From positions 90,756 through 146,146 of the forward strand of contig NZ_BMOS01000007.1 of the NCBI RefSeq assembly GCF_014647195.1: a DNA stretch of 55,391 nucleotides, given 5' to 3'. A program made the translations under genes and the position numbers. The notes under the pieces were generated by a model. It saw only the letters and a program-made list of their open reading frames with translations, did not search any database and was not told where the DNA came from. This DNA comes from Oceanobacillus indicireducens (lineage in GTDB: Bacteria > Bacillota > Bacilli > Bacillales > Amphibacillaceae). Each line of letters starts with the position of its first letter. Position 1 is the stretch's first letter. Positions 5,511-55,299 of this stretch are shown here, piece after piece.

Positions 5511-5780
5511 AAAAATCCCGTCCCTTATAAAAATAAGGGACGGGATTTTTGCCCGCGTTGCCACCCTAGTTGATGTAAATACATCCGCTCTACACACAGT
5601 TAACGCCTGTCTACGTATATCCCTACTCTAATTTTCGGTCTATATCCTCTGGAATGTCTTTCATTGGACTATCGTATAGAAATGCTCTCAGCCAGTGACA
5701 TCTCTTCTCTGCTTTACCTAGTTTCCAATTACTTTTTCCATCAACGGTATTGTCTATTTATTCGTAGCTTATTTGAATGA
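5511..5780 (-). promoter_or_regulatory. T-box leader of hisS-aspS with a GAC (Asp) specifier
   Basis: On the minus strand the leader shows the T-box sequence AGGGTGGCAACGCGGG, followed by a strong terminator hairpin (5511-5550, arms ATCCCGTCCCTTA) ending in T's. In stem I, ATTGGA pairs with TCCAAT and TGGAA with TTCCA. They enclose an internal loop with AAAGTA on the 5' side and GAAAGACA on the 3' side. By the usual position, the specifier is GAC at 5656-5658, an aspartate codon. Uncharged tRNA-Asp would stabilise the antiterminator and turn on both synthetases. The assignment of the specifier is by hand-folding. Confidence 0.93.
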
Positions 5781-39702: not shown

Positions 39703-39810
39703 GAATCCGCACCTCCTTGATCACTAAGACTCGCCATACAGGTACTCTCACTCATAAAAGTTTAAAACCTGTTCTGAGCGGTTGTAGCACTGGTGCTACG
39801 TTGTATAACG
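39703..39810 (-). promoter_or_regulatory. 5' leader of rplU, probable bL21 autoregulatory leader
   Basis: Between the promoter and rplU the RNA contains GTAGCACCAGTGCTAC (a perfect hairpin near 39783-39798) and GAGTACCTGTATGGCGAGTC before the Shine-Dalgarno. Firmicutes carry a structured L21 leader at this place. Identification is from position and general look. Confidence 0.55.
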
Positions 39811-45905: not shown

Positions 45906-48900
45906 TTACAGATACCCTTTTTCCTTCAATGACACAAATTTACGATTTCCAATGATTAAATGATCGAGTACTTCTATTCCCATTATTTTCCCAGCCTCGA
46001 CTAAGCGTCTCGTGACATGGATATCTTCTTGGGAAGGTGAGGGATCGTAGGGTAGGAATCATGCGCCTTACTTTGTTCCCAAGGCAGGTTTCACAATTCC
46101 TCCCTCAGAACCGTACGTACACCTTTCAGCGTATACGGCTCGCCAGTTGACTAATCGGAATTTGCTGCTCATGGTGATCATGATGGCACTTATAACATAG
46201 AACAATGGTTTTTCTATTGCGTTCAATCATTTTTTTGTCCAAATATGTTAAGTGTTTCTTTTTCTTCAGGTCCTTTAACTTACGGACATGATGAACCTCC
46301 ATCTGACCTTCTGTTGTACCACACGCTTCACATTTGTTTGCTAATAAACGCTGTTCAAATTCAGTTCTGCCCGAATATTTCATTGTATTAACTAATATAT
46401 CAATATCGGGTGTGTCTGCTTTGATTGCACCTTTATGCTTAGGTAGGTCTTTAAGCTTTACGAACTGGTGTAATTTTTCATTTCCATGTTTATCTTTCCT
46501 TACAAGGCATAAGACACCTTGTTTGTGGGTCCGCATACTATAAGCAACCTTCCTGGAGGTACTTCTTCTTTTATTAGCAATCGTTTTTATAAAACTACTT
46601 TCAGCTAAATAAAATAGTTTATCTAGATGATGATAATTATTAGCTAACTTGTAGAAATTTGCGATTCCTCTCAATTCAGCGTTATAGGTATGGAGAATTT
46701 CCATTTCCGAATTGTTTATTAGTTTTGCTCTGTGTATAATTTTAAAGGTATCTAAATTACCATATCCATTTTCAATTGCAAATTCTTTGATTTTCTTTTC
46801 AGGAATTTCTAACTTTATTGCACCTGATAGAGTTCTTTTTTTCAAGGGATGCTTTTGGTTTTTATATAAGACCCTTTTTACCTTAACCTCATTCCATCTA
46901 CGAAATTCATATCCAATAAAGGGAATTGGATTTTCAAGATGGGTAATCAGTGTTTTTTCGTCGCTGAGTTCAAGATGGAGTTCCTGTTCTAGAAAACTTC
47001 TAATCGTTTCTTTCATTTTCAAAGCACTTTGTTTTGAGCCGGCAATTCCAATCACGAAATCATCAGCATAGCGGACATATTTCATTCTTTGATAGTTTTG
47101 ATCCATTGGGTCAATAGAGGGAACTTCTAATTGTTTAGCTTTAAGTTCCTGAATATTGAGGACTAACTCCTCCCTACCTTGCCAATGACTATGCCCGTTT
47201 CTTTCATCGAGTCTTGTAATCTTTCGTGTTAGTGTGCTGATTTTTGATCGAACCTTGATGTACTCCTCATTTCTTGCCCTATTCTTACCTTTATCAAATG
47301 CCTTCATTTGTCTTTCCATAAAGAGGTCAAACTCATGAAGCAAGATATTGGCTAGAATAGGAGAAATGATACCTCCTTGTGGTGTACCACTATAAGTTTT
47401 ATTGTATGTCCAATTTTTCATTACACCACTGGTAAGCGCATTATGAAGTAGAAGAAGGAAACGATGATCATTTATTTTCTTTGAGATAAGTTTTAGTAGT
47501 ACAGTGTGGTCAATATGGTCGAAGAAGCCTTTAATGTCTCCTTCAATACACCAAGTTAGTCCTTTCCACGTGTTTTTGATTTGAGATAGAGCTGTATGGC
47601 AGCTTCTCCCTTCTCTAAACCCATGAGAATTATCCGAGAACACTGGCTCAAATACATTTTCCAGTATCATTCTCATAACTTCCTGTACCATCTTATCTTT
47701 AAATTTTGGAACTCCTAAAGGTCTCTTTTTACCATTGGATTTTGGGATATAAACCCTGCGTACAGGTGCAAAGCGGAATGTTCCAGCTTTTAATTGCTCT
47801 ATGATGTTATCAATTTTATGTAAACTGAAACCATCTATTGTTTCATTAGATGTTCCCTTTGTTAGGTTCCCTGGATTCGGATATAGTTTTGCATATGCTT
47901 TAATCCACAACTCTTTGTTATACATGAGACGATAACAATCCGTGATAATGTTTCCTTTTTGAGAAGCTTTCCTTATAACGTCCAACTGATGAAATGGATT
48001 TGTTGCCATATTCATGACTCCTTTCTCGTTGACGTTAACATCAACCTATCTCCCTTCCCCCTGCTAAACTCATTACAAGCAAACGTTGAGTACTATGGAG
48101 ACTCCGTTACCATATGCAATTTTCATAGACCCTTGTCTAATAGCCAATCGGCACTTGCACGTAGGTAATCCCTGCATTATGACATAATTTTAGATGCGTG
48201 ATGGTTAGGTATCCCTTTCGACGGTTTCCTCATACGGAGGATTGAAGGACAAACCTTACTATGGACAGGGCTCCGGAGAATACCCAGTAGACACTCTGGC
48301 GATATATCTCCCATTTTGTCCTCATCGCCTGTTAACTATCGTAGGCAACGGCGCACCCATCGCTCATTCGTCTAGGATTCAAGCAGTTTAGCTTTTACCA
48401 TACATCACTTGGTCTGAAGAACTGACTCGACGTTAGATAGTTTTGTCGTCTCTTCTCCTTTTCACATCATGCTCTGTTCCCTCTATGGATTTCTCCTCAA
48501 GGTAAGATGCTGACCATGGAACGTTGTAAGGAGTTCCAGATTACTAATTAATCGCTAAAATTACGCATCTTGCAGGCGCACGCCGGAAGGATGATTATGT
48601 GTCAGAATTATCGAAGCAGCTGAACGCTTTGCAGCTTCACGGAAGACCTCGCGCGGGTGAACGATCGAAGCATTGAGGCTTCCAACAAAAATGGTTTGCC
48701 GGTGCATAACGTGGTTCTTGGTGTCCAGGAACAAAACGACGAAATGTTCCTGCTTCAATAAGCGCATCTCTTCCATGACATAATTTGCTCCGTCGTCGGG
48801 TGAGCGGATCACGTATTTATCATCCGGTTTATACTGACTCATTCTTTTGCCAAGTTCGATTGCAGCAAGGATCTGCACTCCTTTTGCATGACCGATTCCA

Positions 48901-49121
48901 TTAATCGCTGTCAATTCTTCAAATGTGGCATCGTGTAATAGTTTTAACCCTTCAAAATGCATAAGCACCCGATTGGCAAGCATCATGACGGACTCTACTT
49001 TCGTACCGCTACCAAGCAGGATTGCTAAGATTTCCTGATTGGTCAGATGACTTGCTCCAAGTCTAATAGCACGTTCCCTCGGTCTATCCTCTTTCGGTAC
49101 ATCTTTAATCATGATTTGCAT
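45906..49121 (-). CDS. radC: RadC (JAMM-family protein), interrupted by a group II intron
   Basis: Exon 1 (49121-48582, 180 codons) starts at the ATG after AAAGGAGGTTGTAGG and runs from [19 protein letters not shown] to [11 protein letters not shown]. Exon 2 (46046-45906) reads [20 protein letters not shown] to VSLKEKGYL and stop. Joined at the intron boundaries they give an unbroken 226-residue RadC with a UPF0758 helix-hairpin-helix part ([14 protein letters not shown]) and a C-terminal JAMM domain whose motif HNHPSGDPSPS is cut by the intron between G and D. RadC function is unclear; it was once linked to repair. Because the reading frame is restored exactly, I treat it as a live, splice-dependent gene rather than a pseudogene. 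In B. subtilis maf separates spoIIB and radC and is missing here. Confidence 0.9.
46108..46141 (-). ncRNA. Domain V of the radC group II intron
   Basis: A 34-base hairpin: GAGCCGTA pairs with TACGGTTC, with an upper stem and GAAA loop. The catalytic AGC triad is at the 5' side. The RT stop codon lies inside this hairpin. Confidence 0.92.
46126..48009 (-). CDS. ltrA: Group II intron-encoded reverse transcriptase-maturase with HNH endonuclease
   Basis: A protein of about 627 residues. RT0-RT7 blocks are recognisable: [20 protein letters not shown], the [11 protein letters not shown] motif, [19 protein letters not shown] and the catalytic YADD in [13 protein letters not shown]. The maturase (X) domain follows, and the C-terminus is an HNH DNA endonuclease ([19 protein letters not shown] and [11 protein letters not shown]). 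It aids splicing and target-primed reverse transcription. The second ATG (48009) is eight bases from AAAGGAG and is preferred to the one at 48015, which is two bases away. Read in the same direction as radC. Confidence 0.95.
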   Translation of the reverse strand: MATNPFHQLDVIRKASQKGNIITDCYRLMYNKELWIKAYAKLYPNPGNLTKGTSNETIDGFSLHKIDNIIEQLKAGTFRFAPVRRVYIPKSNGKKRPLGVPKFKDKMVQEVMRMILENVFEPVFSDNSHGFREGRSCHTALSQIKNTWKGLTWCIEGDIKGFFDHIDHTVLLKLISKKINDHRFLLLLHNALTSGVMKNWTYNKTYSGTPQGGIISPILANILLHEFDLFMERQMKAFDKGKNRARNEEYIKVRSKISTLTRKITRLDERNGHSHWQGREELVLNIQELKAKQLEVPSIDPMDQNYQRMKYVRYADDFVIGIAGSKQSALKMKETIRSFLEQELHLELSDEKTLITHLENPIPFIGYEFRRWNEVKVKRVLYKNQKHPLKKRTLSGAIKLEIPEKKIKEFAIENGYGNLDTFKIIHRAKLINNSEMEILHTYNAELRGIANFYKLANNYHHLDKLFYLAESSFIKTIANKRRSTSRKVAYSMRTHKQGVLCLVRKDKHGNEKLHQFVKLKDLPKHKGAIKADTPDIDILVNTMKYSGRTEFEQRLLANKCEACGTTEGQMEVHHVRKLKDLKKKKHLTYLDKKMIERNRKTIVLCYKCHHDHHEQQIPISQLASRIR

Positions 49122-55019: not shown

Positions 55020-55299
55020 AGTTTTAACAATTAAAAAAACCCTTTCCATCCTTCAAAAAAGGACGAAAAGAGTTAACTTCCGTGGTACCACCTTTGTTTA
55101 CAAATAAATATTTGTACACTCATCGACAGATATCGGCGCATAGCCGGCGTGCCTCTACTGTAATTCGAAGCAGCTGCATCAAGGGCGACCTTCCAGCACA
55201 ACCTTCCTAGGAAATTCTCAGCAAATCATTTCCCTTCCTGTAGGCGTTCATCCTGTACTCTTCCCAATCATTTGCATCATTATATTTTAATTACCTTAT
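55020..55299 (-). promoter_or_regulatory. T-box leader of valS with a GTC (Val) specifier
   Basis: On the minus strand the T-box reads AAAGGTGGTACCACGG, and the terminator is at 55030-55075 (AACTCTTTTCGTCC pairing with GGATGGAAAGGGTT, then T's). In stem I, GGG pairs with CCC and CAG with CTG around the specifier loop: AAGAGTA on the 5' side, GAAGGTCG on the 3' side. GTC at 55187-55189 is a valine codon in the same place as GAC in the hisS leader. Uncharged tRNA-Val would allow read-through. Confidence 0.93.

Follow-up and report, generated by a model that had tools for sequence, protein, structure and literature searches.

In the window, by which we mean the whole stretch of 55,391 nucleotides of Oceanobacillus indicireducens DNA that was analysed, the radC gene is read from the minus strand and is interrupted by a group II intron that starts with GTGCGCCTGC, finishes with CCTACCCTAC and separates the codons for HNHPSG from those for DPSPS (Table 1). 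The boundaries GTGCG...TAC carry the GUGYG 5' end and the AY 3' end of group II introns exactly at the exon junctions, and the two exons (540 b, and 141 b including the stop) fuse in frame across them, as a sequence-only reading of this DNA had proposed. The same reading had held that RadC can only be made if splicing works, and the unspliced frame indeed stops six codons inside the intron (VRLQDA). The intron splits the JAMM metal ligands of RadC: exon 1 encodes both His and exon 2 encodes the Asp. Used as query against the 89 contigs (3.87 Mb) of the strain's genome, the intron DNA gave a single match and no second copy. The other RNAs recognized by Rfam in the window are two T-box leaders (5533-5753 and 55056-55280), a 6S RNA (2153-2332) and an L21 leader (39717-39793).

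Table 1. Features of the interrupted radC gene and its intron (positions in the window)
Feature	Position	Strand	Basis
radC 5' exon, 180 codons, ending HNHPSG	48582..49121	-	Pfam RadC and UPF0758_N
radC 3' exon, 46 codons + stop, starting DPSPS	45906..46046	-	junction reading
Group II intron, 2535 bp, GTGCGCC...CCCTAC	46047..48581	-	junctions, Rfam, one own-genome match
Intron-encoded protein (IEP), 629 aa: reverse transcriptase (YADD), maturase X, HNH	46126..48015	-	Pfam
Domain V + domain VI + 3' end	46047..46143	-	Rfam RF00029, whole model (1-77 of 77), 64.2 bits
EBS2 GGGTG, hairpin loop; partner His-Pro codons CAYCC (G-U if CAT)	48354..48358	-	hairpin invariant in alignment A1
Guide loop 1 (putative EBS1 + delta) TCGCCAGAG; own-exon pairs 8/9	48294..48302	-	hairpin 48289-48309
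Guide loop 2 (putative second EBS1 + delta) TCTCCGGAG; own-exon pairs 8/9	48271..48279	-	hairpin 48268-48285
IBS1 region of exon (-7 to -1), TTCCGGC	48582..48588	-	pairing with guide loops
IBS2 of exon (-12 to -8), CATCC	48589..48593	-	pairing with EBS2
delta' (+1, +2), GA of Asp codon	46045..46046	-	pairing with loop 5' end

Judged from its sequence, the intron is intact, in line with what had been claimed for its parts. The intron-encoded protein (IEP) matches the Pfam families RVT_1 (4.4e-33), maturase X (Intron_maturas2, 6.7e-11) and an AI2M-like HNH (3.2e-15), so that the reverse transcriptase (RT), X and En domains of a mobile intron are all present, and its YADD motif, the loss of which marks O.i.I2 of Oceanobacillus iheyensis, is kept at residue 316. 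At the 3' end the Rfam match covers the whole RF00029 model with a score well above the gathering score of 40, and the AGC and a GAAA tetraloop are visible by eye in the domain V region. The EBS-IBS pairing with the flanking exon, on which the sequence-only reading had made its case depend, is present: EBS2 GGGTG faces CATCC with one G-U pair, EBS1 forms 8/9 pairs from either of two loops, and a delta-delta' pairing, a feature of group IIA, lies next to EBS1 between the 5' end of the loop and the GA at +1 and +2. By its resemblance to O.i.I2, which the available parts of two sources assign to the ML class (PMC4424553) and place under group IIA (PMC8283771), the window intron would be of the IIA/ML type.

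The radC boundary HNHPSG|D, hereafter site A, was read with an intron in 44 distinct cases, 28 of them from the 159 genomes of the window's family and 16 from elsewhere, and all 13 relatives of the IEP in the searched genome contigs (13/13) lay inside radC at the same boundary. A RadC search returned 118 whole genes and 41 that were not whole in the 159 genomes. Reading of the latter loci gave 28 with both site-A junctions (four with an additional site-B intron and one with a large upstream insert), two with a partial site-A intron (G002, at a contig end, and G006, with an unrecognizable 5' junction), two with a site-B intron only, three with a site-C intron, three with a large insert near residue 150, two with an element starting in GATCC, and one (G116) cut by the contig start. 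Beyond the family, 12 of 380 genomes of the order showed the filled-site pattern, with none in the reversed control, and none of 360 genomes outside the order did; four other families had it in 1/43, 2/24, 2/44 and 1/34 genomes, mostly overlapping the 12/380. Excluded from the counts were L067 (5' junction unrecognizable), the partial or contig-end loci of G002 and G116, and repeat loci from already-sampled genomes (L046-L049, L053, L061 and others), and L121 is not part of the exon-junction, distance and loop-complementarity counts, which refer to a set of 43 introns. All matches in the plasmid and phage collections stayed below 60% identity, and none of them therefore provided a vehicle for the site-A intron. 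The proposal that the conserved DNA of the motif may be a homing target, with spread among radC genes and with empty and filled sites to be compared, is thus well supported by 44 introns at an identical boundary and by the many relatives with an empty one, and the boundary appears to be a dedicated homing site, one that was not found among the literature matches listed.

Sixteen site-A introns are full-length (2512-2538 bp) and 28 are shortened (705-2229 bp). The junction HNHPSG|D was in frame, with the exons open as read and the motif intact, in 43/43 distinct introns tested, which excludes chance for the placement of the intron; the 3' exon had 46 codons in 42 introns and 48 in one, and only 32 codons of the 5' exon were available for L014, L086 and L116 because of an upstream insertion or the end of the stretch. 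All 27 shortened introns searched had an Rfam domain V at the intron end (L121 was outside this set). Among pairs with dS below 1.2, dN/dS of the IEP was 0.08-0.16 in full-length introns against 0.32, 0.40 and 0.54 in the three measurable pairs of shortened ones, by which measure constraint on the shortened proteins is relaxed, yet still with dN/dS below 1. Together, the intact exons, the catalytic RNA and the signs of selection suggest that splicing is maintained. RadC is conserved but not essential, and for this reason the word housekeeping, which the sequence-only reading had used, is loose; dispensability would also suit an intron that stays unspliced in the cell and simply knocks radC out. 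We regard such a knock-out as very improbable, as all 43 interrupted genes tested keep their exons open as read and their motif intact, even those whose introns are down to 0.7-1.1 kb and still have domain V, and as the shortened proteins still show the dN/dS values given above.

The two size classes also differ in their coding capacity. The full-length frame is unbroken in seven of the 16 full-length introns (L045, which is the window intron, L002, L003, L004 from Virgibacillus indicus, L007, L012 from Ornithinibacillus halophilus, and L117) and broken by a stop or frame shift in the other nine, L013 being scored as broken because of a tblastn frame change near the C-terminus. YADD is kept in 14/16, counting the YSDD of L113, and is absent from L006 and L009. 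Conversely, 27/28 shortened introns have no YADD in an RT context, the exception being L114 (YVDD), whereas FSDD in L057 and YLDD in L064 fall outside such a context as judged by eye. A stop-free stretch of 234-496 codons persists in 25 shortened introns, and L081 and L116 have none of at least 80 codons.

Distances of the 5' 450 nt of the intron did not follow RadC distances among full-length introns (Mantel r -0.12, p 0.78, 15 of 16 used), again as expected from spread among radC genes, while they did among shortened ones (r 0.40, p 0.0002, 25 of 27); L014, L086 and L116 were omitted here, their upstream radC part being interrupted or beyond the stretch. Over the whole intron the full-length set gave r 0.22 (p 0.13), and some shared descent with RadC is therefore possible. 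Individual comparisons point the same way as the 5' region: the window and L008 (O. alkalisoli) have RadC proteins 96% identical and introns 75% identical, the window and L002 have 67% and 87%, respectively, and the closest RadC in the family (G074, 90%) has an empty site. The record of L002 is labelled Paenibacillus bovis DE0126, a label that looks wrong, the genome, apparently G237, being placed in the window's order. In the RNA tree, with long branches and 24 of 41 inner branches open, shortened introns are not confined to one side of a branch, and three changes between full-length and shortened introns are counted, at least two of them forced by supported branches. From the distances and the individual comparisons we take the full-length introns to be travelling and the shortened ones to be mostly inherited. 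An ordinary group II intron that entered radC once, was inherited and was then lost in most species, with no radC-specific homing, would explain the shortened introns and perhaps the whole-intron correlation, and group II introns within bacterial genes are already known; nonetheless we consider this very improbable given the behaviour of the full-length 5' regions, the very different intron (L008) or the empty site (G074) in the window's close relatives and the sporadic presence in four other families. All the statistical tests of this study ignore relatedness and, the sequences being related, overstate independence.

The consensus fold of 14 full-length introns has an invariant GGGTG hairpin (EBS2) followed by two tandem hairpins. 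The stems of the three hairpins and the helix bearing the last two are paired in 251/251 cells of alignment A1, and covariation is seen in 20 stem cells in which both sides differ (7.9 in shuffles), a count made on the same alignment from which the structure was derived. Pairs changed on both sides (4 vs. 3.0) and further pair types (12 vs. 11.8) gave no excess over shuffles, and the hairpins were absent when the corresponding stretch of the window was folded alone (z -0.41).

Pro(wobble)-Ser-Gly|GA has its reverse complement in both loops of the tandem hairpins, at intron nt 280 and 303. Scored over nine positions against all 96 codings of PSG|GA with G-U allowed, loop 1 was complementary at 9/9 in 15/16 full-length introns and loop 2 in 14/16, and each was an exact Watson-Crick complement in 11/16; as background, the other 9-mers within nt 1-500 of these introns reached 9/9 in 27/7312 cases and an exact match in 0/7312, and exact guide 9-mers occurred 11 times among 37867 in the remainder. 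Each loop has 11 different sequences, and most of the changes affect degenerate positions, namely the Gly wobble, the Ser codon and, for loop 2 as well, the Pro wobble; in 10/16 full-length introns one loop suits a TCN serine and the other an AGY serine. A six-base EBS1 sought against -6 to -1 gave no common column, a difficulty resolved by the -7 to +2 window together with both hairpins.

In the window, the spelling that loop 1 complements exactly is CTCTGGC|GA and that of loop 2 is CTCCGGA|GA; against the resident exon, TTCCGGC|GA, either loop forms 8/9 pairs. The TCN/AGY division does not hold here, because both loops fit a TCN serine. The empty-site strings matched in the family number 129, of which 118 are TCN (116 genomes) and 11 AGY (10 genomes), some of them belonging to radC paralogues or to genes interrupted elsewhere. 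With at least eight pairs the window loops fit 60 and 85 of the TCN strings, jointly 105, and none of the AGY strings. Both loops score 9/9 with G-U allowed in every one of the seven introns whose full-length frame is unbroken, but they do so too in six of the nine with a broken frame, and hence the link between two loops and an intact RT is not strict; where one loop of a full-length intron is imperfect (L009, L011, L014), the frame is always broken.

We infer that the two loops are alternative EBS1 guides that widen homing over synonymous radC sites. The competing view, by which a single EBS1 is real and the other loop is a functionless vestige of hairpin exchange or duplication between related introns, is in our opinion unlikely, even if it deserves more weight than the knock-out or the single insertion. 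Some loop sequences do occur at both positions in different introns, as such exchange would leave them, and over the 16 introns the fit of a single loop to its own exon does not significantly exceed the fit to shuffled exons (p 0.31 for loop 1, 0.15 for loop 2), although that of the better loop does (p 0.013); an earlier set of 14 introns gave p 0.31 and 0.08 singly and 0.087 for the better loop, none significant. Introns at other sites, taken as controls for the two-guide reading, have on the whole one principal loop that matches the exon. In the seven radC introns at site B a single 9-mer matched their own exon best, forming 8 or 9 of 9 pairs; it lies at nt 287-290 in six introns and at nt 229 in L080, with weaker G-U-rich 9-mers also scoring 8 in several; the loop of their second hairpin, mostly TGATAC by eye, mismatches the exon and is not among the best matches, which lends the vestige a further point, since a hairpin can stand in second place without being a guide. 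Among five plasmid or phage relatives outside radC, a single best 7-mer (6 or 7 of 7 pairs) was found in L124, L126, L128 and L129 and none in L127, while L125, a site-B intron in a plasmid radC, had no good match to its own exon. Against the vestige, at site A both loops retain full complementarity in nearly all full-length introns despite the diversity of their sequences, and in shortened introns either position can be, by eye, the last guide left, namely loop 1 in L054, L074 and L081 and loop 2 in L075, L116 and L121.

Two exact guides were present in 9/16 full-length and 0/28 shortened introns (p 1.6e-5). By eye, the second hairpin is missing or its loop misfits in L054, L058, L059, L074 and L081, while the first loop has decayed and the second fits in L075, L116 and L121. 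The best 9-mer of nt 190-340 in 27 shortened introns, with 7 to 9 of 9 pairs, matched its own exon better than shuffled exons (p 5e-5). A comparable adjustment is seen at EBS2, which is GGGTG in 16/16 full-length introns, 12 of them facing CATCC through a G-U pair; where a shortened intron has a single, unambiguous EBS2 (13/28), the partners are CACCC-GGGTG in 7/7 and CATCC-GGATG in 6/6. EBS2 is not unique in the other 15/28, among which L115 has GGGTG facing CATCC, against the rule. The pattern led informally to the expectation of an RT-dead intron at L120, with one decayed and one good loop, and the locus read next, L121, proved to be 2229 bp long with YADD replaced by FEDE, a single test whose expectation was not recorded beforehand. 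We infer that one guide is lost once mobility is lost. Neither the second guide loop nor this decay series is part of the sequence-only reading.

We hold it probable that the window contains an apparently active group II retro-intron dedicated to the PSG|D site of radC, with two EBS1+delta guides and, later in the life of such introns, decay of a guide. The intron would splice out of the radC mRNA, allowing RadC to be made, and would retrohome into empty radC genes via EBS2, reading the His-Pro codons, and EBS1+delta, reading the Ser-Gly|Asp codons. The two tandem loops would be EBS1+delta guides for different synonymous spellings of one protein motif, and since each complements a different spelling, one intron could recognize many more radC alleles. 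Once fixed and deprived of its RT, the intron would persist as a splicing intron in which one guide decays while the remaining one, together with EBS2, adapts to the exon in which the intron resides. With slightly less assurance we favour the more general formulation of a multi-guide retroelement, in which two loops (divided between TCN and AGY in many introns) and a G-U-tolerant EBS2 address a protein motif, the spare guide decaying and the others fitting the exon. The sequences themselves show the specificity for the site, the intact exons and domain V, the two guide-like loops, the decay series and the covariation; splicing, homing and the use of both guides are predicted from them.

The closest known relative is in the window's own genus: L062, which we take to be the O. 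iheyensis locus of O.i.I2, shares the RadC exons, the intron type and the identical site with the window, but its intron measures 1948 bp, with no YADD in its 442-codon frame and with a single exact guide. The window intron, in contrast, is of full length, keeps YADD and HNH, and has two exact guides. In the available part of a 2015 review, O.i.I2 is described as an ML intron in radC exons whose degenerate IEP lacks YADD and as the only known bacterial degenerate IEP, such loss being described mainly for organelles, and most bacterial group II introns are said to lie outside housekeeping genes (PMC4424553). The intron that the sequence-only reading had noticed in the RadC motif is real, but its kind was already in print; as far as the accessible text of these sources goes, a radC intron was so known in one species, and to this sole reported case the present site adds 26 further YADD-less shortened introns. 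Mobile IIA introns of the Ll.LtrB type resemble the window intron in the GTGCG start, the RT-maturase-HNH protein, EBS2 and an EBS1 with adjacent delta, but have one EBS1 loop, whereas the window intron occupies a chromosomal radC site and has two EBS1-like loops. A recA intron of Geobacillus kaustophilus, reportedly the subject of a 2005 paper by Chee and Takami, to go by its title, is likewise a group II intron in a conserved DNA-repair gene of a bacillus, although the gene differs. According to the matches listed, radC is also a known integration target of Tn554-family transposons, which are DNA recombinase elements and not introns. In the text available for C.te.I1 of Clostridium tetani, an unusual EBS1 region serves correct exon fusion, yet this is one enlarged EBS1 loop in an intron with alternative splicing and no EBS2, without two guides for synonymous targets (PMC3919590). 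The phrase alternative EBS1 in the accessible part of another paper concerns an alternative IBS1 in the exon, which is a different matter (PMC4238363). Among the literature matches listed, mostly open-access, there was no report of two EBS1 loops, and among those same matches neither the site-wide distribution nor the decay series nor a double guide was found.

Guidance by base pairing should fail when the target drifts synonymously, and two guides on one ribozyme, if true, would be a direct solution, one that could be copied for targetrons. The same radC site moreover holds a graded series, from an intact retro-intron through maturase-like remnants to an intron without an ORF, which makes the change from a mobile to a splicing-only intron testable in bacilli.

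The radC gene receives other insertions as well. Site B (HPREV|F/Y-REA), about 20 codons upstream of site A, is a second group II site, filled in L065, L074, L076, L080, L081, L082 and L119, and five of these genes (L074, L080, L081, L082 and L119, the last in G506, apparently the Bacillus badius genome of L014) carry introns at both sites. At L065 (G065 C33) the site-B insert is 4990 bp long and has two IEP regions and two domain V matches, indicating nested or tandem introns. The site-B intron L125 is carried by a radC-like gene on a plasmid (Metabacillus pB218), which could be a vehicle for introns of this site. Both of the site-A introns that lack an ORF of at least 80 codons (L116 and L081) are in a radC that also carries a site-B intron, and a trans-acting maturase is possible in these cases. 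Site C, inside the Pro codon of HNHPSG (L052, L055, L056 and L093), holds introns of a different type that match RF02004 (D1-D4-5), with L093 representing a radC paralogue whose site-C copy bears an IEP. Near residues 150-158 radC is broken with a short gene repeat at both ends (L077-L079, L083-L086) by inserts of 9 kb (G130) or 43-44 kb (G034, G024), or is divided between contigs (G105). Such interruptions point to prophages or other integrase elements; besides its large insert, G024 has a site-A intron. The element starting in GATCC at the HNHPSG boundary ends near TTGATAA or TTGATAT (L050, L051 and L088 with L089-L092) and is possibly Tn554-like. Finally, an Rfam RAGATH-18 match (50.5 bits) lies near radC at positions 397-490 of L070.
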